Part shown: positions 2,555 to 37,161 of the stretch, piece by piece
Layout of the letters: each line of letters begins with the position of its first letter
Position numbering within the stretch: the stretch's first letter is position 1
NCBI GenBank assembly: GCA_030017685.1
Contig: JASEHH010000027.1
Span: 1 to 37,366, forward strand
Length of the DNA: 37,366 nucleotides
Direction: 5' to 3'
From: Thermodesulfobacteriota bacterium
GTDB lineage: Bacteria; Desulfobacterota; BSN033; UBA1163
Notes under the pieces: model-generated
What the model saw: the letters and a program-made list of their open reading frames with translations, nothing else
The model's database searches: none
Told to the model about the DNA's origin: nothing
Translations under genes and position numbers: made by a program

Positions 2555-2570
2555 TGAGTTGATAGCAAAG

Positions 2571-2643
<73 letters not shown>

Positions 2644-3756: not shown

Positions 3757-3778
3757 GATCTCCTCCTGAAAAACGATA

Positions 3779-8645: not shown

Positions 8646-8700
8646 ATTTTACCCGCATGCACCCTTCACAGTCTTATCCTCGAAGACCTTCGAGCGAAGA

Positions 8701-8888
8701 ATACCCAGGCAGGTTTTCTGACTCTCCCGACCTTAACTCGCCTTCCCATCCCGCCTTTGGCGGGACAGTGGCTTTTTTTGTTAAGGCACTTACCCCTAAA
8801 ATATGGGGTCGGGACTACAGCGGCGGGTCCGTCCCCGACTTTCTCCGACTAAACGGAGGTCACGGGGTTCCCTTCACCTGGATATCAC
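8701..8888 (-). ncRNA. cobalamin riboswitch (B12 element)
   Basis: The minus strand carries the class features in order: P1 5' arm ATATCCAGGT, AAGGGAA, a CCGCCGCTGTA segment, the conserved GCCACTG box, GGGAAGGC, AGTCAG, and the closing ACCTGCCTGG that re-forms P1. A promoter lies just upstream and a terminator downstream. Ligand binding should favour termination and turn off btuB and the salvage genes when cobalamin is plentiful. Confidence 0.93.
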
Positions 8889-8905
8889 CATTTTAAACAA
8901 ACTCC

Positions 8906-22049: not shown

Positions 22050-22059
22050 AAACCACTAA

Positions 22060-22240
22060 GCTACAGGAGAGACCCCGAAGAGGGGCGCCGAAGGGGCAAG
22101 TCCCGATGAGATCGGGGCGAAACTCTCAGGCAAAAGGACTGTAACTTAAGAGATTCCTGGAAAGACCGAGGTGACAAGCCTCGGGCGCCGAAGGGGGCAA
22201 ATCCCGAGTTTGTCGAGGGATAATCTCTCAGGCTAAAAGA
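22060..22240 (+). ncRNA. tandem glycine riboswitch
   Basis: Two consecutive aptamers are seen. The first (about 22064-22140) has GGAGAG, GGGCGCCGAAGGGGCAA and AAACTCTCAGGCAAAAGGAC. The second (about 22150-22240) has AGAGATTCC, GGGCGCCGAAGGGGGCAA and AATCTCTCAGGCTAAAAGAC. The linker is short, as in cooperative tandem glycine riboswitches. A terminator follows. Known members usually switch genes on when glycine is high; here the target is an aminotransferase gene. Confidence 0.95.
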
Positions 22241-22242
22241 CA

Positions 22243-22287
22243 GGGGGAAGGACAATCGCATTGAATTGTTCCTCCTCCTTTTTGTTT
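22243..22287 (+). terminator. terminator of the glycine riboswitch expression platform
   Basis: The arm 22243-22256 (GGGGGAAGGACAAT) pairs with 22265-22278 (ATTGTTCCTCCTCC) with two single-base bulges, followed by TTTTTGTTTT. It lies immediately after aptamer 2 and 50 nt before the coding start. Confidence 0.85.
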
Positions 22288-22337: not shown

Positions 22338-23636
22338 ATGGGTTTGTATTCAAAAAAAAGTGAACGCATCGATACGGAAAATGCATTCAAGATCGGGCCT
22401 CAGATAAGGTCCATCGAGGAACAAGGGAAAAAGGTGATTAAGTGTAATCTGGGGGAGCCGGATTTTCCTGTTCCTGAATTTATCAAAGAGGAGGTCAAGA
22501 GGCAGCTTGACCTTGACAATACCCATTATTGCGACCCTCAAGGCATCCCCTCGCTTCGGAAAGCTATTGCAAAACACCTCAGTGAAACCCGGGGGATTCA
22601 AGCAACGGCGGATCGAGTCGTAGTATTTCCCGGGGCGAAGCCTCCCATTGGTTTATGCCAGCAGACCTATTGTGATCCAGGTGATGAGGTCATCTATCCC
22701 AGTCCAGGTTTTCCCATTTATGAATCCTTTATCAATTATGTCGGCGCAAAGCCCATTCCTGTCCATTTAAAAGAGGAGAAAAATTTTACACTTTCAGACG
22801 AGGAAATAGGTTCTGCTATTACCCAGAAAACGAAGATGATTTTTCTCAATTTCCCTTCGAATCCCACAGGGGGTGCGGCCTCTCCAGAACAGCTTCAGAA
22901 CATTGCCTTGGTGATGCGGGAAAAATGTTCTGAAGAGGTTCGAGTTTTTTCTGATGAGGTTTATGAGGATATTCTTTTTGATGGAAACAAACACCACAGT
23001 ATCATTTCCTATGCGGGGATGGAGAAGATCACGGTCTTGGTGAGCGGAGTCTCAAAGAGTTTCTCCTGGACAGGTGGTCGAATCGGTTGGGCCCTTTTTC
23101 CTACGATAGAGGAAGCAGAGATATTCAAGAACCTGAATATCAATTATTTTTCCTGTATCCCTCCATACAACCAGGAAGGTGCCCGGATCGCCCTTGAATC
23201 TCCTCTTCGTCATGATGCCATTTATAATATGGTCGAGGCTTTCCAGGCGAGGAGGGATTTGGTTGTCAGTGGTTTGAATACCATCAAGGGGATTCGGTGC
23301 CAGAAGCCGAAAGGGGCATTCTACGTCTTTCCGAATATCAGTGGGGTCTGTGAGAATTTGGGAGTCATGGATGCTTTTCAGAGTCTTCCTCCTAACGTTC
23401 GGCAGAGGACAAGTCCTTCGACCCTTTTTCAGATGTTTTTACTCTTCGAATATCAGGTGGCGACGATGGATCGTAAATCCTTCGGTCGCATTGGCTCTGA
23501 ACATCTCCACTACCTGAGGGTTTCGATTGCCACAGACACCGAGTCCCTGAAAAAGGGGTTAAATCGGATTGCCACAGCCTCTTTAGACAGGGAGGGGTTC
23601 AGATGCTTTATCGAAAGAGGGGAGCATCTTTTTTGA
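22338..23636 (+). CDS. class I/II PLP-dependent aminotransferase under glycine riboswitch control
   Basis: A 432-aa fold-type I aminotransferase of the aspartate/alanine aminotransferase group. Visible are NLGEPDFPVP, YPSPGFPIYES, NFPSNPTGG (Asn175), FSDEVYEDI (Asp206 and Tyr209) and the Schiff-base Lys240 in SGVSKSFSWTGGRIGW, with LRVSIATDTE near the C-terminus containing the carboxylate-binding Arg. About 30 residues (roughly 350-385) form an insertion relative to a typical member, and there is a short extra tail. The riboswitch suggests that it acts on glycine or glyoxylate. A GAGGG ribosome site precedes the ATG. It is followed by a glyoxylate-reductase-like gene after 114 nt. Confidence 0.88.
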   Translation: MGLYSKKSERIDTENAFKIGPQIRSIEEQGKKVIKCNLGEPDFPVPEFIKEEVKRQLDLDNTHYCDPQGIPSLRKAIAKHLSETRGIQATADRVVVFPGAKPPIGLCQQTYCDPGDEVIYPSPGFPIYESFINYVGAKPIPVHLKEEKNFTLSDEEIGSAITQKTKMIFLNFPSNPTGGAASPEQLQNIALVMREKCSEEVRVFSDEVYEDILFDGNKHHSIISYAGMEKITVLVSGVSKSFSWTGGRIGWALFPTIEEAEIFKNLNINYFSCIPPYNQEGARIALESPLRHDAIYNMVEAFQARRDLVVSGLNTIKGIRCQKPKGAFYVFPNISGVCENLGVMDAFQSLPPNVRQRTSPSTLFQMFLLFEYQVATMDRKSFGRIGSEHLHYLRVSIATDTESLKKGLNRIATASLDREGFRCFIERGEHLF

Positions 23637-23750: not shown

Positions 23751-24725
23751 ATGAGAATGAAGGTCCTGATAAGCCAGAAGATCTTTGATGAGGTGGTTTC
23801 ACTGGCCGAGAAGTATTTTGATGTGGACTATCATTCAAGCGACATTCCTCTACAGCCCCATGCCTTGATCCAAAGGCTCAAGAATAAGATGGGCGCGATC
23901 ACCCTTCTCACCGATCGAATCGACGACGCCGTGCTCTCCCAGTGTCCCGAGATTAGAATCGTGAGCAATGTGGCGGTAGGGTATAACAATATTGATGTCA
24001 ATGCCTGTACCCGTCGCAAGGTGATGGTGACCAATACACCGGGGGTTTTGGATGATACGACCGCTGACCTCACATGGGCCCTCTTGCTATCCACGGCGAG
24101 GCGAGTGGTCGAAGCGGATCAGTTTCTCAGGTCAGGCCAATGGAAGGGGTGGAAGCTGATGGAATTCTTAGGACACGATGTGCACCATAAGGGTCTCGGG
24201 ATCTGCGGTCTGGGCCGGATTGGTCAAAGGGTGGCCAAAAGAGGCAAGGGATTTGATATGAAGATATTATACACAGATGTCGTTAGGGCAGCTCCATCCA
24301 TTGAGGAATCATTGGGAGCCCAATTCGTGGACAAAAAGGACTTACTATCTGAATCGGATTTCGTCTCCCTCCATGTGCCTCTCTTCCCTGAGACGACGCA
24401 TTATATTTCAGATGCTGAACTGGCCCTCATGAAACCCACTGCCATCCTGATTAATGCATCTCGAGGTACTGTGGTGGACGAGAAGGCATTAGTGCGAGCC
24501 TTGCAGGAGAAAAAGATTGCTGGAGTTGGACTGGATGTATATGAGAGGGAACCTGAAGTGGAGCCTGAACTCCTACAGATGAAGAATGTTGTCTTGGCGC
24601 CTCATATTGCGAGCGCCTCTCGTGAGACCCGGCTTCGCATGGCCACCATGGCAGCAGAAAATTTAATGGCAGGGCTTACGGGAAAGCGTCCTCCCAATCT
24701 GGTGAATGAGGGCGTGCTCCAGTAG
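23751..24725 (+). CDS. D-2-hydroxyacid dehydrogenase, probable glyoxylate/hydroxypyruvate reductase
   Basis: A 324-aa NAD(P)-dependent D-2-hydroxyacid dehydrogenase. The Rossmann motif GLGICGLGRIGQRVAKR (residues 148-164) and the catalytic set Arg238 (INASRGTVVDE), Glu267 (YEREPEVEP) and His285 (APHIASAS) are all in place. NVAVGYNNIDV with NTPGVLDDTTADLTWALLL is typical of glyoxylate reductases (GyaR/GhrB). Other family members act on phosphoglycerate or lactate, so substrate is not certain, but the upstream aminotransferase and glycine riboswitch favour glyoxylate to glycolate. CAGGAGG sits 10 nt before the ATG. Confidence 0.87.
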   Translation: MRMKVLISQKIFDEVVSLAEKYFDVDYHSSDIPLQPHALIQRLKNKMGAITLLTDRIDDAVLSQCPEIRIVSNVAVGYNNIDVNACTRRKVMVTNTPGVLDDTTADLTWALLLSTARRVVEADQFLRSGQWKGWKLMEFLGHDVHHKGLGICGLGRIGQRVAKRGKGFDMKILYTDVVRAAPSIEESLGAQFVDKKDLLSESDFVSLHVPLFPETTHYISDAELALMKPTAILINASRGTVVDEKALVRALQEKKIAGVGLDVYEREPEVEPELLQMKNVVLAPHIASASRETRLRMATMAAENLMAGLTGKRPPNLVNEGVLQ

Positions 24726-24931: not shown

Positions 24932-26089
24932 ATGCATATCAAATCGATCTCGTTGATCCTTTTTGTGATTCTATTATTTACAGGGCTCGCCTTTGGCGCT
25001 GACCCTGTTAAGGTCGGCGTCGTCTATCCTCTGACCGGCCCAATTGCGGCTGCTGGAAGTTATCAGAAGGCAGGAGTTGAAATTGCCAGGGACAGGATAA
25101 ACGCTGAAGGAGGGATCTTGGGAAACCCTGTTAGGGTCTTTATTGAGGATGGCGCTAACGATCCTGCCCAATCTGTAAGTGCTGCTGAAAAGTTAGTGAC
25201 GAGGGATAAAGTGGATGTGATGATCGCCGCCTGGGGCAGTTCACCCACTCTTGCGGTGAGTGCGAGCGTCACAAAGAAATATGGAGTTCCCCATGTAGTC
25301 GATACGGCAAGTTCCGGTAAGGTAACAAAATTGGAAGGGAAGAGACCCAATCCGTGGTTATTCAGGATCAGCCCAACAAGCCAGATGGAAGCAGAAGGTT
25401 CTGAAAAACTTTTGCCTAAGTTGGGATTCAAGAAAGTGGCTTTTATGTTGGTAAATAATGACTGGGGGAGAGGCGCTGCCCAGGAATTTGGGACTGTGAT
25501 TCAGAGAACAGGCGGTAGCATCGTGACACAAGAAATCATTAACGCCGATGCTACCGATTTTTTGACCCAGTTGACAAAAATCAAAAGTGCCGGTGCCGAT
25601 TCAATCATTGTGACAACCGATCAGGCACAGATCTCTCTGATTCTGAAGCAGTACAAATCACTGGGAATGACACAGAAGATACTGACCACGGGTGGGGGCA
25701 TTGTGCCCGAGGGTTTGGTTGCCCTTGCCGGTCCAGAGGCTGCCGAGGGGGTCAATATTATTACCTTCTTTGCACCCTGGTTTCCCGAGACGACCAAAAT
25801 TCCTCAGGAGGCAAAATGGTTTGCGGACGAATATTTGAAGAGAGGACATGCACCGAAGGGTTTTGGTGAATCCTTTCGTGGTTATGATGGAATGAAAATT
25901 ATTAAGGCAGCTTTTGAAATGGCCAAGACCACGGATAAAGAGAAAGTTCGAGAGGCCTTTCATAAAGTGGATACTTGGGGTTTATCAGGTCATATCAAAT
26001 TTGACGAATTCGGTCAGAGTTCACCAATGATCTTGATCGTTCAGGTGAAAGGTGGAAAACCCTTCATTCCAGAATTTATGAGACAATGA
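24932..26089 (+). CDS. branched-chain-amino-acid-type ABC transporter substrate-binding protein
   Basis: A 385-aa periplasmic binding protein of the LivJ/LivK (peripla_BP_6) family. A signal peptide (residues 1-22, ending LAFGA) is followed by VKVGVVYPLTGPIAAAGSYQ and INAEGGILGNPV, the standard family opening, and FGESFRGYDGMKII near the end. These proteins bind amino acids, but also amides, urea, aromatic acids and purine-related compounds. With the catabolic genes downstream, a heterocycle or its derivative is a possible ligand. GAAGGAGGG gives a strong ribosome site. A strong hairpin after the gene probably keeps its level above that of the permease genes. Confidence 0.92.
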   Translation: MHIKSISLILFVILLFTGLAFGADPVKVGVVYPLTGPIAAAGSYQKAGVEIARDRINAEGGILGNPVRVFIEDGANDPAQSVSAAEKLVTRDKVDVMIAAWGSSPTLAVSASVTKKYGVPHVVDTASSGKVTKLEGKRPNPWLFRISPTSQMEAEGSEKLLPKLGFKKVAFMLVNNDWGRGAAQEFGTVIQRTGGSIVTQEIINADATDFLTQLTKIKSAGADSIIVTTDQAQISLILKQYKSLGMTQKILTTGGGIVPEGLVALAGPEAAEGVNIITFFAPWFPETTKIPQEAKWFADEYLKRGHAPKGFGESFRGYDGMKIIKAAFEMAKTTDKEKVREAFHKVDTWGLSGHIKFDEFGQSSPMILIVQVKGGKPFIPEFMRQ

Positions 26090-26100
26090 TCCTATCGTTT

Positions 26101-26134
26101 GAGGGCCAGATGGGGGTGATCCCCGCTGGCCCTT
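26101..26134 (+). other. intercistronic hairpin after the binding-protein gene
   Basis: GAGGGCCAG (26101-26109) pairs with CTGGCCCTTC (26125-26134) with an inner GGGG/CCCC helix and TGAT loop. No T run follows. Such hairpins often stabilise binding-protein mRNA in ABC operons. Confidence 0.6.
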
Positions 26135-26161
26135 CCATCAAAAATGAGATAGAAGACCTTT

Positions 26162-27031
26162 ATGATTTTCGTCCAATACGTCATTAATGGTTTAATTATT
26201 GGCGGGGCCTATGCCCTGATCGGGATTGGCCTGACGATGGTCTTTGGCATTATGAGGGTAGTCAATTTTGCCCATGGTGAGATGTACATGCTCGGGGCCT
26301 ACTTCCTTTTCACCTTCTTCACTAAAATGGGTATCAACTTTTACCTCAGTATGTTATTGGCGATCGCAGCGGTGATGGGGATCGGAGGGATTTATGAAAA
26401 GGCGATCCTCAAGCCCTTAAGGAGAAGGTCGATCGAAACGGTGATGCTCTCCATGATCGGGTTCTCCCTATTCATCCAGAATATTGCCATGCTGATCTGG
26501 ACCCCTGTGCCGGAGTCAATCACAAGCCCCTTCCCTCTCACCGCCTATACGCTGGGAGGCCTTTATTTTCTCCCTCAGAGAATCATGGTTATCTTCGCGG
26601 CTCTCTTTCTTGTTCTCCTGACTCACCTGTTATTGAAAAAGACGAAGATAGGAAAGGCAATGCGGGCAACCTTTCAAGACCTCGAAGCCGCCTCTCTGAT
26701 GGGGATTAAGATTGACCGGATTTACTCCTTTACCTTTGTCATAGGGGTGGGATTGGCAGCATCGGCCGGAACACTTCTGGGGCCGATTTTCACCGTGCAC
26801 CCTTACATTGGAAACCTCGCCAATTTAAAAGCCTTCGCCATCGTGATCATCGGCGGACTCGGGAGCTTCACCGGTGCGATTACAGCCGGGTTCCTGCTGG
26901 GTGTCTTTGAAAGTTTGGGCGCAGGCTATGTTTCTTCTGGATATCAGGATGCCATAGGCTTTATCTTGTTGATCATCATTCTGATCTATAGACCCACCGG
27001 CCTTTTTGGAAAGATTGGACAGAGGCGATGA
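26162..27031 (+). CDS. livH: LivH-type ABC transporter permease
   Basis: A 289-aa inner-membrane permease of the LivH family with about eight hydrophobic helices. Family motifs are NGLIIGGAYALIGIGLTMVF and MRVVNFAHGEMYMLGA at the N-terminus, KAMRATFQDLEAASLMGI (the cytoplasmic EAA-like loop that contacts the ATPases), and VIIGGLGSFTGAI. It pairs with LivM to form the membrane channel. Its stop overlaps the livM start (ATGA), typical for this operon. Confidence 0.94.
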   Translation: MIFVQYVINGLIIGGAYALIGIGLTMVFGIMRVVNFAHGEMYMLGAYFLFTFFTKMGINFYLSMLLAIAAVMGIGGIYEKAILKPLRRRSIETVMLSMIGFSLFIQNIAMLIWTPVPESITSPFPLTAYTLGGLYFLPQRIMVIFAALFLVLLTHLLLKKTKIGKAMRATFQDLEAASLMGIKIDRIYSFTFVIGVGLAASAGTLLGPIFTVHPYIGNLANLKAFAIVIIGGLGSFTGAITAGFLLGVFESLGAGYVSSGYQDAIGFILLIIILIYRPTGLFGKIGQRR

Positions 27032-27981
27032 ATAGAGATCGCATCATCACATTGCTTTTTCTTTTAGGATCCCTGATCTATCCGATCCTCATGAGAGATC
27101 CCTACTATATGCATATGGCGATTCTCATCGGGATCTACGCCCTATTGGCGATCAGCCTCAACCTATTGTTGGGATATACAGGCCAACTCTCGCTGGGACA
27201 TGCAGCCTTTTTTGGGGTGGGGGCCTATGTCTCCTCCCTATTCTATCTGAATCTAAAGATTCCCGTGTGGATAGGGATGGTGATGGCGCTGATTGCTTCC
27301 GGAATCTTAGGCTATATTGTAGCCAAACTATCCTTTAAGCTGAGAGGCGCCTATTTTGTGATCATGACCATCGGCATTACCGAGGTGTTAAAACTGGTTG
27401 GATTGAATTGGGTTGACCTGACCAAAGGGCCCATGGGGCTCACCGATATCGGCGCCCCGACGATTCACCTCGGAGGGCTGGGGACGCTCGACTTCGGTGA
27501 TAAGATCCCTTACTATTACTTGATTCTAAGTCTGGTGGTCCTCTGTTTCTATCTTCAGTACAGGCTGGTCTCTTCCTCCTATGGAAGGGCTTTTATCTCC
27601 ATCCGGGAAAACGAAGATTTAGCGGAATCGGTTGGCATTAACTGTTATAAATATCTGGTGATCGTAGTAATGGTGAGCGCTTCCATCGCCGGTGTGGCAG
27701 GCTCTCTCTACGCTCATTATGTGAGTTTCATAGACCCCGGCGTCTTCGCCTTCTTCATCAGCGTGAATGTGGTGATGATGGTGATCGGAGGAGGACAGGG
27801 AACCCTGATGGGCCCCATTATCGGGGCCATCCTCTTCACATTGATTCCGGAGTGGTTGAGGGTATTCGGTGATGCCCGGATGGCGGTCTATGCGGTCATG
27901 GTCATCGTTATCGTAATCTTTATGCCGAGGGGCATCCTGTTTTATGTCACCCAACTCTTAAATCTGAGAAAGAAAACGTAA
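27028..27981 (+). CDS. livM: LivM-type ABC transporter permease
   Basis: A 317-aa permease of the LivM family. Visible are YALLAISLNLLLGYTGQLSLGHAAF, LRGAYFVIMTIGITEVLKLV, the cytoplasmic loop AFISIRENEDLAESVGI and VVMMVIGGGQGTLMGPIIGA. It has about ten membrane segments. The start overlaps livH by 4 nt and its stop TAA shares one base with the livG ATG, so translation is coupled through the set. Confidence 0.94.
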   Translation: MNRDRIITLLFLLGSLIYPILMRDPYYMHMAILIGIYALLAISLNLLLGYTGQLSLGHAAFFGVGAYVSSLFYLNLKIPVWIGMVMALIASGILGYIVAKLSFKLRGAYFVIMTIGITEVLKLVGLNWVDLTKGPMGLTDIGAPTIHLGGLGTLDFGDKIPYYYLILSLVVLCFYLQYRLVSSSYGRAFISIRENEDLAESVGINCYKYLVIVVMVSASIAGVAGSLYAHYVSFIDPGVFAFFISVNVVMMVIGGGQGTLMGPIIGAILFTLIPEWLRVFGDARMAVYAVMVIVIVIFMPRGILFYVTQLLNLRKKT

Positions 27982-28763
27982 TGAAAAAGGAAATCCTGAA
28001 CATTCAACATCTGACCGTGCAATTTGGCGGGTTGACGGCGGTGAACGATGTTGCTTTTTCCATTTTCAGAAACGAGATCGTTAGCCTGATCGGACCCAAT
28101 GGAGCGGGAAAGACAACGATCTTCAATGCGATCACCGGCTTTTTGAAGAGGATCTCAGGCATGATCCAGTTTGAAGGTGAGAAGGTGAGTCATTTGAAAC
28201 CTCATCAGATTGCCGAGCAGGGGATTGTCCGGACATTCCAGATCACTTCTCTTTTTCCGAACTTATCGGTTCTTGATAACATCCGAACCGGCCACCATAT
28301 GGAAGAGAAGGAAACGTTCTTGGATGCTATTTTTAACACGAAGCGGAAAAAGAGGATAGAAGAGGAGACCCTTGCAAAGGCCGACCAGATCCTGAAATTC
28401 ATCGGGTTGGAAGGAAAGAGAGAAGTTATTGCAAACAACCTTCCCTACGGAGAGCAACGCCTCCTTGAGATCGGAATCGCCCTGGCCGCAAGGCCGAAGT
28501 TACTCCTTCTGGACGAACCTTCAGCAGGGCTCAATGATACGGAGACCCAGATGATGAAGGGTTTGATCAAGAGGATGAGAGACCTGGAGATCACCATCCT
28601 CCTGGTGGAGCATGACATGAAACTGGTCATGGGCATATCGGACCGAATCCTTGTGCTCAATTTTGGGAAAAAGATTGCCAGCGGAACACCTGATGAAATC
28701 CGATCCAATCCAGAAGTCATTCGGGCCTATTTAGGGGAGAGAAGAAGAGATGTTAGGAGTTGA
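27981..28763 (+). CDS. livG: LivG-type ABC transporter ATP-binding protein
   Basis: A 260-aa ATPase of the LivG family. Walker A is GPNGAGKTTIFNAITG (about residues 38-53). The family's VRTFQITSLFPNLSVLDNI Q-loop region, NLPYGEQRLLEIGIAL signature motif, LLLLDEPSAGLN Walker B and the H-loop VEHDMKLVM are all present. The signature reads PYGEQR in place of canonical LSGGQ, which is common in LivG proteins. Its end overlaps livF by 14 nt. Confidence 0.95.
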   Translation: MKKEILNIQHLTVQFGGLTAVNDVAFSIFRNEIVSLIGPNGAGKTTIFNAITGFLKRISGMIQFEGEKVSHLKPHQIAEQGIVRTFQITSLFPNLSVLDNIRTGHHMEEKETFLDAIFNTKRKKRIEEETLAKADQILKFIGLEGKREVIANNLPYGEQRLLEIGIALAARPKLLLLDEPSAGLNDTETQMMKGLIKRMRDLEITILLVEHDMKLVMGISDRILVLNFGKKIASGTPDEIRSNPEVIRAYLGERRRDVRS

Positions 28764-29463
28764 GCATATTGAGGCGAGCTACGGACACATCCGTGCTCTA
28801 TCGGATGTCTCCTTAAAGGTGGAAGAGCATGCTACCGTAACCTTGATTGGCTCAAACGGCGCTGGGAAATCGACGCTTCTAAAGGTGGTCTCCGGATTAT
28901 TAAAACCGAATGAAGGAAAGGTCGAATTTTATGGGGAACGAATCGATGGGTTATCTCCGGATAGGATTGTGGCCAGAGGGATTGCCCACTGTCCGGAGGG
29001 GCGGAGGATTTTCCCTGAACTCACGGTGGTAGAAAACTTGGAGATGGGGGCCTACTTGGAGAGATCGAAAAAACTGGTCAAGGAGAGAATTGAGAAGCTT
29101 TTCGATTCTTTTCCTATTCTGAGGGAACGTCACAAACAGTTGGCAGGGACACTGAGCGGAGGTGAACTCCAGCAACTTGCCATTGCTCGTGCTTTAATGT
29201 CGAATCCGAAGATGATGCTATTTGATGAGCCCTCCCTCGGATTGGCCCCTATCCTTGTTGATCAAGTAGAGAAAATCATCCTGAGACTCAAGGAAGAAAA
29301 GATTACCATTCTACTCGTCGAGCAGAATGCCAACATGGCCTTGGAGTTAGCAGATTATGCCTATGTCATGGAAACGGGATCCATCATCCTTGAGGGCCCT
29401 TCCCCTGATCTGAGAAGGGACGAAAGAGTGATCAAAGCCTACCTCGGAGGATTAGAAGGGTAA
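28750..29463 (+). CDS. livF: LivF-type ABC transporter ATP-binding protein
   Basis: A 237-aa ATPase of the LivF family. Walker A GSNGAGKSTLLKVVSG, the LSGGELQQLAIARALMSNPK signature region, Walker B MMLFDEPSLGLAP and VEQNANMAL H-loop region (Gln in place of the usual His pair is normal here) are seen. With LivG it powers import. The next gene, a molybdenum hydroxylase subunit, begins only 8-11 nt later, which suggests that the importer and the enzymes form one operon. Confidence 0.95.
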   Translation: MLGVEHIEASYGHIRALSDVSLKVEEHATVTLIGSNGAGKSTLLKVVSGLLKPNEGKVEFYGERIDGLSPDRIVARGIAHCPEGRRIFPELTVVENLEMGAYLERSKKLVKERIEKLFDSFPILRERHKQLAGTLSGGELQQLAIARALMSNPKMMLFDEPSLGLAPILVDQVEKIILRLKEEKITILLVEQNANMALELADYAYVMETGSIILEGPSPDLRRDERVIKAYLGGLEG

Positions 29464-29473
29464 ACAAAACGTG

Positions 29474-30784
29474 ATGAGAGAAAGAGATCAGACCCGGAAA
29501 AAACCGTTTTCCTGTGTCGGATATTCCGTCCCCAGAATTGATGCCCTTGATAAGGTCCTGGGAAGGGCGGTCTATTCAGAAGACCTCTCCTTTCCGGACA
29601 TGCTCTATGGCAGGGTCCTCCGCGCCGGGATTCCCCATGCCCTCATCGAAGAGATTGATGCCCGCGAAGCCAAGGCCATGGACGGCGTCGTCTGTGTGTT
29701 GACCGCAAAGGATGTCCCGGGGATCAACCGTTACGGGGTCGCTTTTCAAGACCAGTATGCCCTGGCTGAGGGGAAGGTCCGTTATATCGGAGACCCAGTA
29801 GCCCTTGTGGCAGCCGAGACAGAAGAGATTGCGAAAGATGCGATCAAAACCATCCGGGTTAGATATGGTAAGCTTCCCGTGATCACCAATCCGCATGAAG
29901 CCCTCGCGGAAGGGGCGCCGAGAATCCATGACAAGGGCAATCTCCTGCTCCACACCAAAATTCGAAAGGGCGACGTCGAAAAGGGTTTTGGAGAAGCGGA
30001 TGTGGTGGTGGAAGACACCTATAAGACTCATGTGGTGGATCATGCCTATCTCGAGACGGAGTCAGGCATTGGAATGATGGATAAACAAGGAAATCTCGTC
30101 ATCTGGTCGGCCAATCAATGTCCTTTTCGAGATCGGAGACAGGTCGCCGTTGTTCTCGGGATGAGAGAAAATAAGGTTCGGGTCATCCGGGCAACCACGG
30201 GCGGCGCTTTTGGCGGCAAGGATGATGTGACCGTTGAAATCCACATCGGTCTTCTCGCCTGGGCAACCGGAAGGCCGGTTCGCCTTGTTTTAGACCGAGA
30301 AGAATCCTTTCTCTCTCAGACCAAACGACATGCCATTGAGATATGGACCCGATGGGGAGCGAGGCGGGATGGAAAACTTTGCGCCATGGAAGGAAGGGTA
30401 CTGGGGGATACAGGGGCCTATGCCGGTTTAGGAGCCTTTGTCGTTAAGAAATGCGGCATTCATCTCTCCGGGCCCTACTTTATTCCCAATATCAAAGTTG
30501 ATTCTTACAGCCTCTATACCAACAATATCATCGCCAGTGCGATGAGGGGTTTTGGTGTCGCCCAGGCTGCCATTGCCCATGAGTCTCAGATGGATGAGCT
30601 GGCCAAAAGACTGGGGATCAATCCTCTGAATTTTCGGCTGATCAACGCGTTGGATGTTGGACTTTCGACGGCAACAGGTCAGGTTCTGTATGAAGGGGTG
30701 GGCATTAAAGCCACTCTCGAAAAGATCAAGGAAGTCGTTCTGAACCATCCATCCCTTCAAAGCTACTGGAAGGATCTCACATGA
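29474..30784 (+). CDS. molybdenum hydroxylase large subunit, N-terminal half (NdhL-like)
   Basis: This 436-aa protein matches the first part of the molybdopterin-binding subunit of the xanthine dehydrogenase family. It opens with the a/b hammerhead domain (VGYSVPRIDALDKVLGRAVY) and then has the MoCo-binding domain 1 with ATTGGAFGGKDDVTVEIH, LVLDREESFLSQTKRH and SAMRGFGVAQAAIAHESQMD. It stops where domain 2 should begin; the next gene supplies the rest and overlaps it by 4 nt. Sizes of about 48 and 36 kDa recall NdhL and NdhM of Eubacterium barkeri nicotinate dehydrogenase, whose large subunit is likewise split. A GTG at 29471 is an alternative start. Confidence 0.9.
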   Translation: MRERDQTRKKPFSCVGYSVPRIDALDKVLGRAVYSEDLSFPDMLYGRVLRAGIPHALIEEIDAREAKAMDGVVCVLTAKDVPGINRYGVAFQDQYALAEGKVRYIGDPVALVAAETEEIAKDAIKTIRVRYGKLPVITNPHEALAEGAPRIHDKGNLLLHTKIRKGDVEKGFGEADVVVEDTYKTHVVDHAYLETESGIGMMDKQGNLVIWSANQCPFRDRRQVAVVLGMRENKVRVIRATTGGAFGGKDDVTVEIHIGLLAWATGRPVRLVLDREESFLSQTKRHAIEIWTRWGARRDGKLCAMEGRVLGDTGAYAGLGAFVVKKCGIHLSGPYFIPNIKVDSYSLYTNNIIASAMRGFGVAQAAIAHESQMDELAKRLGINPLNFRLINALDVGLSTATGQVLYEGVGIKATLEKIKEVVLNHPSLQSYWKDLT

Positions 30785-31767
30785 AGAAGCGGGGAATCGG
30801 CATAGGTTGCATGTATTATGGAATGGGATACGGGTTTTCTCGGCCGGATGTCTCCGCAGCCGAAGTGGAGATCTGTGAAGACGGCTCTATCATTGTCCGA
30901 TCCGGCGAAGTGGATTATGGCCAGGGGTCGGATACGATCTTCTGCCAGATGGTGGCGGAGGAGCTTGGAATTCGGTACGACACCATTCAACTGATTACTG
31001 CTGATACCTTTGCCACTCCCAATGCAGGGCCTACTTCCGCCAGCCGGCTCACCTATGTGACTGGAAATGCGATGGTGAAAGCCTCTCGAGCCATCAAAAA
31101 GACCCTCCAATCCGTAGCTGAAGAGATTCTTGGCGAGAGGGATCTCCTCTTTCTGGATGAGGAGATCTTTTCAGAGAGTCATCCGGAGAGGCGTATCTCT
31201 TTCAGGCAACTTGCCAAAGAGGGGCATCTTCGGGGGCTTCCCATGGTGGAGACAGCCTGGCATGATATTACCACGAAAGATGTGAATCCCGAGACCGGAC
31301 AGGGGGATGCCTATTCAACCTATGCCTATGCTGCCCAATTGGCAGAGGTAGCAGTGGATACGGAGACGGGTGAAGTGGAAGTCTTGCGTATTGTAGCGGC
31401 CGCCGATGTGGGAAAGGCGATCAATCCATCGAATGTCGAAGGGCAAATCGAGGGCGGTGTGGCCATGGGGCTTGGATATGCATTGACTGAAGAGATCAAG
31501 GAGGAGGGAGGTTATCTCAAAACGAGAAATCTTGGGGAGTACATGATTCCAACGAGTATGGATGTTCCGCCCATCGATCCCCATATTGTGGAAGTTCCTG
31601 TCTCAAGCGGCCCCTATGGTGCGAAAGGGGTGGGAGAGCCGGCATTGATCCCTACAGCTCCTGCCATCTTGAATGCCATTGCCAATGCCATTGGAGTTCG
31701 TGTCACCGAACTTCCTGCCAATCTGGAGAACCTTCACCGTTTGATCAGAGAAAAGGAGAGAGACTGA
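30781..31767 (+). CDS. molybdenum hydroxylase large subunit, C-terminal half (NdhM-like)
   Basis: A 328-aa protein matching the second half of the xanthine-dehydrogenase-type molybdopterin subunit. It begins with KKRGIGIGCMYYGMG, which in fused relatives lies mid-protein, and has VRSGEVDYGQGSDTIFCQMVA (pterin contact), PTSASRLTYVTGNA and SSGPYGAKGVGEPALIP, whose Glu is the catalytic base of the family. The ATG overlaps the previous stop as ATGA, the frame is shifted by one, and together the two proteins equal a normal large subunit. No Cys-ligand or maturation gene (xdhC-like) is present. Confidence 0.9.
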   Translation: MKKRGIGIGCMYYGMGYGFSRPDVSAAEVEICEDGSIIVRSGEVDYGQGSDTIFCQMVAEELGIRYDTIQLITADTFATPNAGPTSASRLTYVTGNAMVKASRAIKKTLQSVAEEILGERDLLFLDEEIFSESHPERRISFRQLAKEGHLRGLPMVETAWHDITTKDVNPETGQGDAYSTYAYAAQLAEVAVDTETGEVEVLRIVAAADVGKAINPSNVEGQIEGGVAMGLGYALTEEIKEEGGYLKTRNLGEYMIPTSMDVPPIDPHIVEVPVSSGPYGAKGVGEPALIPTAPAILNAIANAIGVRVTELPANLENLHRLIREKERD

Positions 31768-31781
31768 TCTGAAGGAATAGC

Positions 31782-32642
31782 ATGCAGCGTTTTCAATTTT
31801 ATAACCCACGTTCCGTCGAAGATGCGCTGAACTTTCTCGCCGAGAAAGGAGAACGTTCCAAGATAATCGCGGGTGGCACGGACTTGATTCCCGGCCTTCG
31901 ACTGGAAGAGATCCGTCCTGATTTTGTTTTGAATATCCCTGAGATCAATCCATTCAGGGGGATTAAAGAGATGGATCATTCTTTCTGGATCGGCCCCACT
32001 ACAACCTTTACAGAGATGGTCGAATCGAACCTCCTTTCACGTTCCTTTCCTGCTCTGGTTCAGTCGGCAGCTTCCGTTGGAGGACCCCAAATAAGAAACC
32101 GTGGAACCATTGGAGGAAATATTGCCAATGCCTCACCCGCTGCTGATGTTTTGCCTGCTCTCCTTGCCCATGGTGGCGAGTTGGAACTCCAATCGAAGAG
32201 AAATGGAAAGAGGATCATTCCACTCGCCGAGGCGATTTTATCGCCTTATAAGACCTGCTTTAGGTCTGATGAAATATTGACAGGAATCATCTTAAAGAAG
32301 TTGGAGCTTGGGACTCGGAGCGCCTTTGAAAAGCTTGGCCGTCGAAAGGCCATGGCAAGGGCAAGGATGAATCTCACCCTTCTTCTCCGTTTGAACCACA
32401 GAGAAGAGGTCTCTGAGTTGAGGATCGTTCCAGGCGCAGTGATGCCTGTGGCGAAACGGATGGATCGTACAGAGAGGATGCTTTTGGGTAAAAAACCTGA
32501 GCCCCTCCTGATCGAAGCCGCTTCAAAGACCTTGGCAGAAGAAATGGTGGAGGTGACAGGGGCTCGATGGTCAACAGAGTATAAGATCCCTGTTCTGAAG
32601 AATATCTTCAAGCGGATGATGAAGCAGTTGCTCATAGTGTAA
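31782..32642 (+). CDS. molybdenum hydroxylase FAD-binding subunit (CoxM/NdhF-like)
   Basis: A 286-aa FAD subunit of the CoxM/XdhB type. FAD-binding motifs are IIAGGTDLIPGLR (residues 28-40) and ASVGGPQIRNRGTIGGNIANASPAAD (about 97-122, with the paired Gly-rich loops). The C-terminal CO-dehydrogenase flavoprotein domain follows, with FEKLGRRKAMARARMN. It takes electrons from the FeS subunit and passes them to NAD(P) or another acceptor. It sits 14 nt after the large-subunit second half and 21 nt before the FeS subunit, as part of one operon. Confidence 0.92.
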   Translation: MQRFQFYNPRSVEDALNFLAEKGERSKIIAGGTDLIPGLRLEEIRPDFVLNIPEINPFRGIKEMDHSFWIGPTTTFTEMVESNLLSRSFPALVQSAASVGGPQIRNRGTIGGNIANASPAADVLPALLAHGGELELQSKRNGKRIIPLAEAILSPYKTCFRSDEILTGIILKKLELGTRSAFEKLGRRKAMARARMNLTLLLRLNHREEVSELRIVPGAVMPVAKRMDRTERMLLGKKPEPLLIEAASKTLAEEMVEVTGARWSTEYKIPVLKNIFKRMMKQLLIV

Positions 32643-32663
32643 GTGGAGGAGAGGTAGGAAGTC

Positions 32664-33140
32664 ATGATGTCAAAAGAACCGGGGAAGACATTATTAAAGA
32701 TGAAGGTAAATGGAAAGGCCGTAGAGGTCATGGTCAACCCCACCTGGACCCTCCTTCGTGTCCTTCGGGAAGAGCTAAGACTCACGGGGACGAAGAAGGG
32801 CTGTGAGCAGGGAGACTGCGGTGTCTGCACGGTGATCATGGATGGGAGGACTGTCAATGCCTGTCTGGTTCTGGCCCTTCAGACAGAGTCAAAAGAGATT
32901 GAGACGATCGAAGGCCTTGGGACAGCCGATCAACTCCATCCTCTTCAGAAGAGCTTTATCAAGCACGGCGCGGTTCAGTGCGGTTTTTGCACTCCGGGAA
33001 TGTTGCTGTCTGCCAAGGCGCTCCTGGAAAAGAATGCGGACCCCACCCTCGAGGAGATCAAAAGGGGAATTTCCGGAAACCTGTGCCGGTGTACGGGATT
33101 CGTAAAAATTATAAAGGCGATTCAGAATGTTCACAGATAG
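32664..33140 (+). CDS. molybdenum hydroxylase [2Fe-2S] subunit (CoxS/NdhS-like)
   Basis: A 158-aa iron-sulfur subunit. The N-terminal plant-type [2Fe-2S] domain has GCEQGDCGVCTVIMDG with a fourth Cys at NACLV. The C-terminal helical [2Fe-2S] domain has QCGFCTPGMLLSAKALLE and GNLCRCTGFVKI. This is the standard small subunit of the xanthine dehydrogenase/aldehyde oxidoreductase family. GGAGAGG precedes the two adjacent ATG codons. With the three genes upstream it completes an L-M-F-S enzyme of four polypeptides. Confidence 0.95.
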   Translation: MMSKEPGKTLLKMKVNGKAVEVMVNPTWTLLRVLREELRLTGTKKGCEQGDCGVCTVIMDGRTVNACLVLALQTESKEIETIEGLGTADQLHPLQKSFIKHGAVQCGFCTPGMLLSAKALLEKNADPTLEEIKRGISGNLCRCTGFVKIIKAIQNVHR

Positions 33141-33152
33141 AAAAGGATCCTT

Positions 33153-34427
33153 ATGAGACCGGAGATAGAGCGGCAGGTCCTCGAACTCATCGAGCAGAGG
33201 CGAAACGAGATCATTTCTTTCTTGAGAGAACTCGTCTCCATTCCGAGCGTTACCGAAGAGGAGCTTCAGATTCAGGAATTTATTGCCCAAAAACTTAAGA
33301 CCATGGGACTCCAGGTAGAGATGTGGGAGCCGGATCATGAGGCATTGAAAAGGCATCCTGCTTATTTGCCTTCGGAACGGGGATACCAAAGCCGGCCTGA
33401 TGTGGTCGGGATCTATAAGGGAACAGGACACGGAAGGTCCCTCCTCTTTAATGGACATGTGGATGTCATTCCACCAGGGCCATTCGAAGCCTGGGAGCAC
33501 CCTCCCTGGGCAGGTGAGATTCAGGGAGACCGGCTTTATGGAAGAGGGGCATCGGACATGAAGAGTGGTCTTGCTGCCATGACAATGGCCCTCGAGAGTT
33601 TGATCCATTTGAAGGTGAGACTGAAAGGAGATGTCCTTCTCGAATATACGATGGATGAGGAAGCGACCGGAAATGGGACACTCGCCTGCGTTGTAAGGGG
33701 ATACAAAGCGGATGCAGGGATTTGTTGTGAGACGAGCAGTCTACACATCCAGCCTGCCTGTATTGGCAGGATCTGGTTTGAAGTCCTTATTCGGGGAAAA
33801 CCAGCCGGCATACAGAGGCGATGGGAGGGGGTCAATGCCATTGAAAAAGGATATGCAGTCGTGCAGGCTGTTTCCGACCTCGAAAAGATCAGGATCAATA
33901 AGTTGAACCATCCCCTCTACCCGGATAAGAGGAGTTCCCTTCCCTGTATGGTCGGCGTCTTTCAATCCGGTTCCTTTCCAAGCGCTTTTCCTGACACCTG
34001 CCTTTTAAAAGGGAGCATTGCCACATTGCCAGGAGAGGATACGAATCAGGTCAAGTCGGATTTTGCCGAACACATCCTGGCGTTTGCAAGAACAGATTCT
34101 TGGCTTAAGGACCATCCTCCGGAAGTAAAATTTGTTGGCTATTGCGGCGATCCCGCCGAGATTTCTTCTGATCATCCCATTGTTTCTGTGATGAGCGAAA
34201 GATTCAGGCAGGTCATGGGAAGAGAGCCCCAGATTACCGGACGGCAGGGCGCTGCCGACACCCGTTACCTCATCCAATATGGCCAAACCCCCACTGTCAT
34301 TTTTGGGCCAGGACTGACCGAACAGATGCATGCCAACAATGAGTGGGTGAATGTGAATGACCTTATTTCAGCCACAAAGATTTTGGCGTTGACGGTGATG
34401 GATTGGTGCGGCTATGAAGCCCCTTGA
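33153..34427 (+). CDS. M20-family metallohydrolase (ArgE/DapE/YgeY-like)
   Basis: A 424-aa di-zinc amidohydrolase-type peptidase. Metal and catalytic residues are present: NGHVDVIPPG (His102, Asp104), GASDMKSG (Asp135), MDEEATGNG (Glu169, Glu170), CCETSS (Glu193) and a C-terminal EQMHANNE His. In the dimerisation (lid) domain, where relatives read like AHAG-xR-EGVNAIEK, this protein reads PAGIQRRWEGVNAIEK, so the lid His is replaced by Gly219. Family members cut N-acyl, carbamoyl or formyl amides. Next to a molybdenum hydroxylase and a PreA-like reductase, it may open or deacylate a catabolic intermediate. It starts 12 nt after the FeS gene, with AAGGA. Confidence 0.87.
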   Translation: MRPEIERQVLELIEQRRNEIISFLRELVSIPSVTEEELQIQEFIAQKLKTMGLQVEMWEPDHEALKRHPAYLPSERGYQSRPDVVGIYKGTGHGRSLLFNGHVDVIPPGPFEAWEHPPWAGEIQGDRLYGRGASDMKSGLAAMTMALESLIHLKVRLKGDVLLEYTMDEEATGNGTLACVVRGYKADAGICCETSSLHIQPACIGRIWFEVLIRGKPAGIQRRWEGVNAIEKGYAVVQAVSDLEKIRINKLNHPLYPDKRSSLPCMVGVFQSGSFPSAFPDTCLLKGSIATLPGEDTNQVKSDFAEHILAFARTDSWLKDHPPEVKFVGYCGDPAEISSDHPIVSVMSERFRQVMGREPQITGRQGAADTRYLIQYGQTPTVIFGPGLTEQMHANNEWVNVNDLISATKILALTVMDWCGYEAP

Positions 34428-34477
34428 ACATTGCGGAAAGCGTTACCCTATAGATCAATAGAGAACAGGAGACCCAA

Positions 34478-35653
34478 ATGAATAGCCTTGAAGTGACCTT
34501 TGCAGGAGTGAAATTGCGTAACCCATTAATCCTTGCCTCAGCCACACCGAGCTGGGATGGAGAGAGAGCAAACTTGGGTTGGAAAGCAGGAGCCGGAGCC
34601 GTGATTCCAAAGAGTTTTGCACCACCGACCAAGTGGGCACAGCATCCTCGCTGCGGTCGAATGAGGCTGGTCAAGCATGGTAAGAACCGAATCGGCATGG
34701 TGAACATCGAACTCTATACGACCATGACGTTGAAGGACTGGCTCGACACTGAACTAGATAAGGCCTGCGAAGGAGACGGCGTCATCATTGCGAGCATCGT
34801 AGCCCATCCTGATCCCAAGGATACGGGTCGAAATGCAAAGCTCATCGAGGAGACAGGCCAAGTGGCCATGTTCGAAATCAATGTCTCCTGTCCCATGCCC
34901 GCAGACAGTTCGAAGGTGGGGTTCCAGATGGGAAACGATCCGGAGATGTGTTACCGGCAGGTGCAAGCATTGAAGAAGGCCGTGCGTCTTCCGGTGGGAA
35001 TCAAGCTGACTCCGACCACACACAACATGGTGCCGATGGCACAGGCCTCTGAGAAGGCCGGCGCCGATTTTGTCACCATCGGAAATTCGATCCGTTCCTT
35101 TGCTGGAGTGGATATTAAGACTGGACTTCCAAAACTGCCTGCCTACGGAGGTTATAGCGGCCCTGCCATTAAACCCGTTACCCAGCGCCATGTCTCCGAA
35201 GTGGCCAAAGCGGTCAACATTCCAATCTCTGCCTGTGGCGGCATCAGTACCTGGGAGGATGTCGTCGAATATATGATGCTGGGGGCCACAACCGTCCAGA
35301 CCTGCACCAGCATTATGTGGCATGGCTATGCTTATTTCCAGATCCTTTTAAAAGGGCTATCCAACTATTTAAAAAGAGAAAAGCTTGATTCTTTTGACGC
35401 CATCCGTGGAAAGGCCCTTCCCCATATCGTCCCGATTGACGAGCTGTCTAAAAGACCCGTGATGGTGGCAAAGGTGAAGCCCCTAAAATGTATCAACCTT
35501 ACAAAGGGGGGATGTGGACTCTGTGGAAAGGTCTGCTTCTATGGAGCCATCCGATTTGCCCCTAAACTTAGGCTCGACAGAGAAAGATGTGATGGGTGTG
35601 GTCTGTGTACTGAAATCTGCCCGACCGAAGCTTTAAAATTGGTTTCGAAGTAA
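34478..35653 (+). CDS. PreA-like flavin/iron-sulfur reductase (dihydropyrimidine-dehydrogenase family)
   Basis: A 391-aa protein with an FMN-binding dihydroorotate-dehydrogenase-like barrel (residues 1-300: LRNPLILASATP, FEINVSCP, VGIKLTPT, ACGGISTWEDVVEYMMLGA) and a C-terminal ferredoxin domain with two [4Fe-4S] sites (GGCGLCGKVC and CDGCGLCTEICP). PreA and mammalian DPD reduce uracil and thymine. Where DPD has GLACGQDPE with the catalytic Cys, this protein has GFQMGNDPE, so the Cys position is Met151. It is therefore unlikely to be a standard pyrimidine reductase; another ring or an enamide may be reduced. ACAGGAG supports the start. Same operon as the M20 gene (50-nt gap). Confidence 0.88.
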   Translation: MNSLEVTFAGVKLRNPLILASATPSWDGERANLGWKAGAGAVIPKSFAPPTKWAQHPRCGRMRLVKHGKNRIGMVNIELYTTMTLKDWLDTELDKACEGDGVIIASIVAHPDPKDTGRNAKLIEETGQVAMFEINVSCPMPADSSKVGFQMGNDPEMCYRQVQALKKAVRLPVGIKLTPTTHNMVPMAQASEKAGADFVTIGNSIRSFAGVDIKTGLPKLPAYGGYSGPAIKPVTQRHVSEVAKAVNIPISACGGISTWEDVVEYMMLGATTVQTCTSIMWHGYAYFQILLKGLSNYLKREKLDSFDAIRGKALPHIVPIDELSKRPVMVAKVKPLKCINLTKGGCGLCGKVCFYGAIRFAPKLRLDRERCDGCGLCTEICPTEALKLVSK

Positions 35654-35682
35654 AATTTGTCATCCGATCAGGGGCCGTGCAA

Positions 35683-37161
35683 ATGATCAATTTGACCATC
35701 ACCGAAGGGCAGTTGAAGAGAACCATTGAACGGGCTCGTGAGAAGAAGATCCTCATTCCTACCCTCCACCAACAGAAATATCCTGAATCCATCCCCGCAA
35801 AAATGAGAGAGCGATTAAAGGAGATCGGCCTCTGGGATATCCATCCCTGCAACCTCTTCCGGATCACCTGGAAGAATGAGCCGGTTGATGTTGGAGGGGG
35901 TTTTGGAGATGTCAATTATGTAGAAATACCCTCAGCGATTTCTGGAGTTGATACAAGGATTATCGCTCTGGTTGGAAAATGGTTTCCAACAGGTTCTCAT
36001 AAGGTGGGAGCAACTTTTGGCTGCCTCGTTCCGAGGCTCGTCACAGGGCAGTTCGATCCGACCTCACAGAAGGCGGTCTGGCCATCAACGGGCAACTTCT
36101 GCCGCGGAGGCGCCTACGATGCTACCCTCTTGGGATGTGAATCCATTGCTATCCTGCCAGAAGGAATGAGCCAGGAGAGGTTCGAATGGCTGACTAAGGT
36201 GGCGGGGGAGGTGATTGCCACTCCCGGATGTGAGAGCAATGTCAAAGAGATATTTGATAAATGCTGGGAGCTGAGAAAGACCCGGGATGACATCTTTATC
36301 TTTAATCAATTTGAAGAGCTGGGAAACCATCTCTGGCATTATGAAATAACGGGGAATGCCATTGAGGAGGTTCTCAAGAGAGTGATGTCTGACAAAGATC
36401 GGTTCGCTGGGTTTATTTCACAGAGCGGCTCTGCTGGGACCTTAGGAGCAGGAGACTATTTAAAGAAGGTTTTTCCTCAGAGCAAAATTGTTGCGGGTGA
36501 AGCGCTCCAATGTCCCACCCTTTTGCTTTGCGGCTATGGAGATCACCGGATCGAGGGCATTGGCGATAAGCATATCCCGTGGATCCACAATGTAAAAAAT
36601 ACGGATATGGTCATTGCCGTGGATGACAACGCCTGTATGAACTTAATCCGGCTTTTCAATGAGCCCGAGGGCTGGAGTTTTCTTCAGAAACAAGGGGTCA
36701 AAGATGATCTCATTTCAAAACTGCCTTTGATGGGAATATCGAGCATTGGAAACTTGCTATGCGCCATTAAATTCTCCAAATACTATGAGCTAACAAAGCG
36801 TGATATGGTGATGACCGTGTGGACGGATTCCATGGACCTTTACCAGACCAGGCTAAAGGAGATGCGCAGGGCCTATGGTCCCTATTCGGAAATGGAAGCC
36901 GCCAGGGCCTATCACCGCTATCTCATGGCAGAATCAATTGGCCATATGCAGGAGCTGAACGATTACGACCGACGCCGGATCCATAATTTGAAATATTTTA
37001 CCTGGATTGAACAGCAGGGCAAAGGACTTCCAGAGCTCAATGCCCAGTGGTACGATCCAGAGTATTGGGAGAGCATCCATCAACAGGCCAGTGAAATCGA
37101 TCGACTCATTGAGGCCTTTAATGATCGGACCGGATTGCTTAAGTGGTTGCATTGTAACTGA
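35683..37161 (+). CDS. PLP-dependent enzyme, TrpB/threonine-synthase-like fold, substrate unknown
   Basis: A 492-aa fold-type II PLP enzyme. The expected Schiff-base Lys107 is in WFPTGSHKVGATFG, followed by the substrate loop STGNFCRGGAYDATLLG and the phosphate-binding Gly-rich loop SQSGSAGTLGAGDYLKK. The protein is longer than cysteine synthase or diaminopropionate ammonia-lyase (about 310-400 aa) and is not clearly either; beta-elimination or ammonia-lyase chemistry is likely. The ATG at 35683 has AGGGG 8 nt upstream; GTG at 35677 is the alternative. The last Asn codon and the stop fall inside a segment copied from the ACT gene tail, so the native C-terminus may be lost. Confidence 0.85.
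   Translation: MINLTITEGQLKRTIERAREKKILIPTLHQQKYPESIPAKMRERLKEIGLWDIHPCNLFRITWKNEPVDVGGGFGDVNYVEIPSAISGVDTRIIALVGKWFPTGSHKVGATFGCLVPRLVTGQFDPTSQKAVWPSTGNFCRGGAYDATLLGCESIAILPEGMSQERFEWLTKVAGEVIATPGCESNVKEIFDKCWELRKTRDDIFIFNQFEELGNHLWHYEITGNAIEEVLKRVMSDKDRFAGFISQSGSAGTLGAGDYLKKVFPQSKIVAGEALQCPTLLLCGYGDHRIEGIGDKHIPWIHNVKNTDMVIAVDDNACMNLIRLFNEPEGWSFLQKQGVKDDLISKLPLMGISSIGNLLCAIKFSKYYELTKRDMVMTVWTDSMDLYQTRLKEMRRAYGPYSEMEAARAYHRYLMAESIGHMQELNDYDRRRIHNLKYFTWIEQQGKGLPELNAQWYDPEYWESIHQQASEIDRLIEAFNDRTGLLKWLHCN

Follow-up and report, generated by a model that had tools for sequence, protein, structure and literature searches.

Gene content of the operon

A contig of 37,366 bp from a Thermodesulfobacteriota bacterium (GenBank assembly GCA_030017685.1, contig JASEHH010000027.1), analysed over its whole length and called here the window, carries an operon in which a liv-type importer is followed by a four-chain molybdenum (Mo) hydroxylase, an M20 hydrolase, a PreA-like reductase and a fold-type II enzyme dependent on pyridoxal phosphate (PLP), designated PLP0. 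The operon comprises 12 plus-strand genes at 24932-37161, all backed by Pfam matches (Table 1), with intergenic gaps of -14 to +72 bp (72, -4, -1, -14, 7, -4, 14, 21, 12, 50 and 23 bp in gene order). The initial annotation had placed importer, hydroxylase, M20, PreA-like and PLP genes at these coordinates with the same assignments, and all of them were found; as for its nine to ten tightly spaced genes, the spacing was confirmed and the number corrected to twelve. The window is the entire contig C199 of the host genome G000 (3.96 Mb, 326 contigs, 92% complete), and since the contig ends only 205 bp past PLP0, the operon may extend further and other genes could follow.

Table 1. Genes of the operon in order, with the matches behind each assignment.
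Product	Position	Strand	Evidence
liv-type periplasmic substrate-binding protein (SBP)	24932..26089	+	Pfam Peripla_BP_6 2e-64
LivH-type permease	26162..27031	+	Pfam BPD_transp_2 1.4e-42
LivM-type permease	27028..27981	+	Pfam BPD_transp_2 8.1e-42
LivG-type ATPase	27981..28763	+	Pfam ABC_tran, BCA_ABC_TP_C
LivF-type ATPase	28750..29463	+	Pfam ABC_tran; LivF call from position and length
Mo hydroxylase large chain 1 (NdhL-like)	29471..30784	+	3hrd_A 1.2e-113 over 11-423; Pfam Ald_Xan_dh_C, MoCoBD_1
Mo hydroxylase large chain 2 (NdhM-like)	30781..31767	+	3hrd_B 1.4e-77 over 1-323; Pfam MoCoBD_2; GVGEP kept
Hydroxylase FAD chain	31782..32642	+	Pfam FAD_binding_5, CO_deh_flav_C
Hydroxylase 2Fe-2S chain	32664..33140	+	Pfam Fer2_2, Fer2
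M20 ArgE/DapE-type metallohydrolase	33153..34427	+	Above cut-off for TIGR01910 and, narrowly, for PRK06837; below it for YgeY; expected metal-ligand columns conserved
PreA-like FMN reductase, two C-terminal 4Fe-4S motifs, no FAD/NAD(P)H domain	34478..35653	+	Pfam DHO_dh 5.3e-37, Fer4
Fold-type II PLP enzyme (PLP0)	35677..37161	+	Fold and cofactor motifs of fold-type II (O-acetylserine sulfhydrylase/cystathionine beta-synthase-like) enzymes present

Both large chains of the hydroxylase find their best PDB match in the nicotinate dehydrogenase of Eubacterium barkeri (3hrd, chains A and B), almost end to end and with the same split point, the identity over the two chains combined being 43.6%. A frameshift or assembly error as the origin of the divided large chain was considered and rejected, since the same split recurs at a second locus, L007 (76% identity), and 3hrd A and B align nearly end to end; three Halanaerobiales loci show it as well. 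The GVGEP motif of large chain 2 is conserved and a tyrosine near its start is common to the window and nicotinate dehydrogenase, both being features with presumed roles in the enzyme. The FAD chain matches best a CO dehydrogenase flavoprotein in the PDB (3hrd_C, at 3.6e-29, ranks sixth) and XdhB in NCBIfam, and the best NCBIfam model of the 2Fe-2S chain is glyceraldehyde dehydrogenase gamma, barely ahead of the XdhC model. From its sequence, the enzyme has the four-chain architecture (L, M, F and S) of nicotinate dehydrogenase; beyond that architecture, nicotinate dehydrogenase is a candidate assignment.

The M20 enzyme was rejected as YgeY, since it reaches 131.5 bits with the YgeY model, whose cut-off is 321, and shows 19.5% identity to E. 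coli YgeY. Its relatives at loci L012 and L138 fail both YgeY and PRK06837, TIGR01910 being the only ArgE/DapE model that they pass.

The PreA-like reductase retains the SCP cysteine of the PreA/dihydropyrimidine dehydrogenase family as well as its Asn columns. The protein matches pig dihydropyrimidine dehydrogenase (PMC7332683) at 9.4e-41. As in the ferredoxin-dependent PydAc/PreA enzymes, an FMN domain, the SCP cysteine and a 4Fe-4S tail occur and an NAD(P)H domain is lacking; differences lie in five extra residues within the first 4Fe-4S motif and in a score below the cut-off of the PreA model, an equivalog (268.6 vs 335 bits), so that an assignment as PreA proper is not supported. Ferredoxin is the partner of a naturally occurring PydA that lacks the FAD domain (PMC7332683), and since the operon enzyme has no FAD/NAD(P)H domain, it is probably fed by ferredoxin too. 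In the reductase tree, it groups with four close relatives in a clade of its own (100/100). The UacX-like proteins of Halanaerobiales fall outside this clade and are without the SCP loop in the alignment; this tree did not include C. difficile UacX itself, and YgfK formed a very long branch in it.

A second PreA-like reductase (32-34% identity) occurs in the same genus at L131 (G000:C47, 1444-11138) and L134 (G008:C13), with its own single-chain Mo hydroxylase and a TRAP-like transporter, and at L131 also with a carbon-nitrogen hydrolase. These loci form another candidate ring-degradation cluster.

The conserved core and the neighbourhoods of PLP0

A census of the phylum (395-genome sample, E 1e-100) found the M20 protein in 4 genomes, PreA in 5 (four at 73% identity or more, one at 51%) and PLP0 in 9. 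The four M20 genomes are precisely those with the high-identity PreA, and all four hold PLP0. They are not four independent cases, because two share a family, and the naive chance that the three other M20 holders would all have PreA (about 4e-7) ignores kinship; the M20 match in G051 carries an in-frame TAA. Outside the sample, L007 repeats the gene order of the window from the hydroxylase through PLP0, at 55-81% identity. Five core genomes were thus compared (the window, L007, L012/G218, L138/G240 and L132/G051, the pairs being equated by identical coordinates), and in all five M20 and PreA are adjacent, with PLP0 adjoining them in four and lying on another contig in G051. The PreA-M20-PLP0 core is a conserved unit.

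The partners of this core vary. The hydroxylase stands with it in the window and in L007, two of the five cases, and the importer is of the liv type in the window only, a BMP-type binding protein standing at the contig end of L007 and TRAP genes nearby in the other three. In the window, the best PDB matches of the SBP are binding proteins of the branched-chain amino acid type, at 1.6e-26 or weaker, so that its ligand cannot be named, and with three importer types occurring, the importer was discarded as a clue to the substrate. The proposal of the initial annotation that one gene set acts as a unit on a single imported substrate consequently holds in part: followed across genomes, M20, PreA and PLP0 co-occur and stand as the unit, whereas the idea of five enzymes sharing one substrate loses ground, with the hydroxylase beside the core in just two genomes and a gene of the aldehyde-ferredoxin oxidoreductase (AOR) family in the other three, and the liv importer had to be dropped as a fixed partner.

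At 494 residues, PLP0 differs from the O-acetylserine sulfhydrylase/cystathionine beta-synthase family (18-29% identity) by additional segments at both termini, and it lies under every NCBIfam cut-off among the matches listed. Two candidate identities were rejected: YgeX, since only 46 residues align with the E. coli protein (1e-4), and OrtB, since there is no OrtB-named model among the matches listed. Diaminopropionate ammonia-lyase is absent from the best 50 structural matches, which does not exclude that identity.

A scan of 84,980 species genomes returned at least 590 confirmed relatives of PLP0, from which the best-scoring 80 loci were kept, many of them short (median 16.75 kb) and six falling outside the main PLP0 cluster (cluster 0), probably through the crude caller of open reading frames (ORFs). 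Six purine/ureide gene types were scored, and at least one was present in 51 of the 80 loci and at least two in 34, namely YgeW/OTC (25 loci), carbamate kinase (25), hydantoinase (24), SsnA/8-oxoguanine deaminase-like (15), YgeY (12) and adenine deaminase (8). In addition, a threonine-synthase-like PLP enzyme, PLP1, occurred in 46 loci and a Mo hydroxylase in 17, and E. coli-type YgeX in none (tblastn, at least 100 bits). None of the six types was found in nine stretches fetched around PreA-like genes, which make up a small control. This purine/ureide context, which emerged from the comparison of loci and was invisible to the initial annotation, is the most informative functional clue to PLP0.

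The same association is seen at close range. Three genomes of the genus of the window (G002, G003 and G008) have the order TRAP-YgeY-YgeW-PLP1-PLP0, with PLP0 directly after PLP1, and in G002 the YgeY and YgeW proteins are 48% and 67% identical to those of E. coli. In the tree, the PLP0 of the window clusters with the PLP0 of these three genomes (99/94), those of the other core genomes falling elsewhere. In the host genome G000, no PLP1 orthologue was found (best match 34%), YgeW gave no match at 1e-30 (UacY was not searched), and the closest counterpart of the relatives' YgeY, at a contig start, is 32% identical; these absences are no proof, because the genome is only 92% complete. One PLP0 gene therefore appears to serve two settings, working in the window without its usual partners. 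Further afield, PLP0 is common to the purine clusters of Halanaerobiales and Chloroflexota, and in three of three Halanaerobiales genomes overlapping stretches assemble one cluster of PLP0, PLP1, YgeY, YgeW, a split L/M hydroxylase and a UacX-like reductase, joined by an adenine deaminase-like gene and a pair of SsnA/8-oxoguanine deaminase-type amidohydrolases.

Two side observations concern these loci. In the Halanaerobiales purine clusters at L164, L165 and L166, a UacX-like reductase is adjoined by a second Mo hydroxylase, which is of the split L/M form, and at L107 (G019:C172, 8282-9675) the PLP0 of G019 is divided between two frames, as would be expected of a broken gene or an assembly error.

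Proposed pathway and rival explanations

In the reductive urate pathway, whose enzymes were resolved only in 2025, urate is converted to yanthine by XdhD, the ring is reduced by YgfK (in C. difficile by the PydA homologue UacX), SsnA and HyuA follow, and YgeW or UacY, YgeY and YgeX lead to pyruvate (PMC12507026); a commentary (PMC12990295) presents the same pathway, leaving the order of ureido cleavage open. The operon has comparable components, namely an enzyme of the Mo hydroxylase family, an M20 hydrolase, a fold-type II PLP enzyme and a PF01180 reductase without FAD domain, as described for UacX in PMC12507026. There are also differences: no SsnA (best match in G000 36.2 bits vs a cut-off of 455.5), no YgeW and no YgeY or YgeX orthologue was found, the reductase falls in a separate clade, the M20 enzyme is of the ArgE/DapE type, and the hydroxylase large chains resemble nicotinate dehydrogenase more closely than XdhD. 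The operon also holds no hydantoinase as counterpart of HyuA, as had been noted at the outset, although that absence does not extend to the genome, where one lies above cut-off on contig C297. From the nicotinate fermentation it differs in having no enzyme of the amidohydrolase (enamidase) family, the rest of the genome not having been searched for enamidase or 6-hydroxynicotinate reductase, and from the reductive pyrimidine (Pyd/Pre) pathway in having neither dihydropyrimidinase nor beta-ureidopropionase. The initial view that the gene content departs both from the urate cluster of E. coli and C. difficile and from the nicotinate route was upheld.

The reading we favour, with a probability of about one half, is that the operon imports a small N-heterocycle and degrades it anaerobically on the pattern of the reductive urate pathway, applied to a single ring. 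The four-chain hydroxylase would add (or remove) oxygen at a ring position adjacent to nitrogen, and the PreA-like enzyme, probably fed by ferredoxin, would reduce a ring C=C bond conjugated to a carbonyl. The M20 enzyme would then hydrolyse a C-N bond of amide or ureido type, and PLP0 would eliminate the beta-nitrogen group of the alpha-amino acid so formed (2,3-diaminopropionate or its ureido form), giving pyruvate and ammonia. The gene content, the conserved core, the intact motifs and the link of PLP0 to purine/ureide genes are observed; the reactions, their order and the substrate are inferred.

Several points weigh against this reading. Ring opening is its weak point, since the operon holds no cyclic amidase, and either the M20 enzyme or the hydantoinase on C297 could perform it. 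Substrate and activities are predictions, and the nearest solved relative of the hydroxylase acts on nicotinate, whose degradation is not known to yield a diamino acid. Membership of the reductase in the UacX-like clade was considered and is not supported by the tree. As regards PLP0, its lyase role is a prediction: the nearest structures are cysteine-synthase-like, and such enzymes also catalyse beta-replacement. Moreover, PLP0 may not be the lyase, because it often adjoins PLP1, which has no orthologue in the genome of the window. The purine/ureide context is not universal either, since 29 of the 80 loci have none of the six gene types and 20 have none of the scored categories, among them four of the eight best-matching (L005, L008, L009 and L010) and L039, all five with records titled as Desulfobacteraceae, Desulfuromonadales or Deltaproteobacteria. 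Finally, in the three core genomes other than the window and L007, an AOR-family gene stands beside PreA and no hydroxylase was seen in the stretch, a pattern by which the Mo step could be an aldehyde oxidation or lie outside the core.

In a bolder version of the single-ring reading, which is tentative and taken as a whole unlikely, PLP0 would be an undescribed, tightly conserved family replacing YgeX, alone or with PLP1, and the operon would be a one-ring variant acting, for example, on imidazole-4-carboxylate. On paper, hydroxylation would give 2-imidazolone-4-carboxylate, PreA 2-oxoimidazolidine-4-carboxylate, and opening with decarbamoylation 2,3-diaminopropionate, from which PLP0 would release pyruvate and ammonia; the same scheme would suit pyrazine-2-carboxylate or 5-aminouracil. 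Among the titles and abstract beginnings listed in searches of the open-access literature, none describes the operon or PLP0. PF00291 neighbours are labelled as YgeX in PMC12507026, so that PLP0 may have been included under that name and not distinguished. If the favoured reading is correct, Mo hydroxylation, ferredoxin-fed reduction, hydrolysis and PLP-dependent cleavage would constitute an anaerobic module reusable for other ring compounds, and a conserved PLP enzyme family found in about ten phyla would gain a testable function in the place of YgeX.

Among the rival explanations, the one that survives best, although it is unlikely, regards the Mo (or W) enzyme as an aldehyde dehydrogenase, with hydroxylase and AOR-family protein as alternatives for one aldehyde-to-acid step while PreA, M20 and PLP0 act on a cyclic amide or ureide. 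It draws on the AOR-family genes beside PreA at L012, L138 and L132 (assigned by Pfam, or at L138 by PDB and NCBIfam matches) and also at L139, where the gene is Pfam-assigned and PreA is cut by the contig end, a 100-residue gene lying between. The L138 protein matches 1aor best in the PDB, well above benzoyl-CoA reductase, and the first matches of the hydroxylase FAD chain in the PDB and of its 2Fe-2S chain in NCBIfam would also fit. Nevertheless, adjacency does not demonstrate a shared step, and identity to the L138 gene is only 37-40% in the other AOR genes, compared with 73-76% between the core PreA proteins and that of the window; the L012 gene is divergently transcribed, and in the window the large chains have nicotinate dehydrogenase and not the aldehyde oxidoreductases as their nearest relative, with XdhB as the first NCBIfam model of the FAD chain.

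Somewhat less probable is a nicotinate (pyridine carboxylate) route, in which the hydroxylase would form 6-hydroxynicotinate, PreA would stand in for 6-hydroxynicotinate reductase and M20 for enamidase, and PLP0 would act on a later amino acid. Besides the large-chain matches and the shared split point, the route is favoured by a mutual best match in the set compared (nicotinate dehydrogenase scores best with the window enzyme, which in turn scores best with it after L007) and by a 23-row tree joining the window, L007 and nicotinate dehydrogenase in one clade (91/94); a single-chain Halanaerobiales enzyme, 44.5% identical to the window hydroxylase, yet scores lower than nicotinate dehydrogenase. 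Reduction of a 2-pyridone, furthermore, would be chemistry of the dihydropyrimidine dehydrogenase kind. The clade, however, breaks up into an unresolved fork once three split enzymes from Halanaerobiales purine clusters join the tree, which are about as close (40-43% identity). Two alignment columns, at positions that line the substrate pocket in xanthine dehydrogenase, hold Asp and Lys in the window and L007 vs Leu and Arg in nicotinate dehydrogenase. Moreover, the nicotinate route is not known to include a PLP step, and the purine/ureide context of PLP0 would go unexplained.

It is improbable that the operon completes urate/purine catabolism with genes located elsewhere. On C297, an OTC-family gene and a gene for an amino acid kinase (carbamate kinase-like) come after the hydantoinase, and PLP0 is shared with purine clusters; against this, no SsnA, YgeW match or PLP1 orthologue was found in G000, which is 92% complete, and the best YgeY match there is only 32% identical. 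Coincidental neighbourhood of genes from separate pathways, the least probable explanation, could still apply to the hydroxylase and the importer, which differ between genomes, and is unlikely for the core, given the adjacency of M20 and PreA in the five core genomes, with PLP0 next to them in four, and the coinciding holder sets of the census.

Other features of the window

Upstream of the operon, a tandem glycine riboswitch (22054-22245, plus strand; Rfam RF00504, 69.7 and 37.9 bits) precedes an aminotransferase gene (22338-23636) and a 2-hydroxyacid dehydrogenase gene (23751-24725). This pair is separated from the operon by 206 bp, in which no plus-strand terminator-like match was found. 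The riboswitch was rejected as part of the operon system, since none reached the gathering score in 19 other PLP0 or core loci scanned. At L005 (2968-5458), an aminotransferase gene lies directly 5' of PLP0, its product being 46% identical to that of the window gene at 22338-23636.

Elsewhere in the window, a cobalamin riboswitch (8691-8896, minus strand) lies upstream of a TonB-dependent receptor gene (6565-8496), and a DBI_PRT-family (CobT-type) gene occupies 2692-3843. A tRNA-Phe gene (2570-2643, minus strand) overlaps the start of an ORF of the MotA/ExbB family called at 1861-2688, the true start of which is therefore probably further in.

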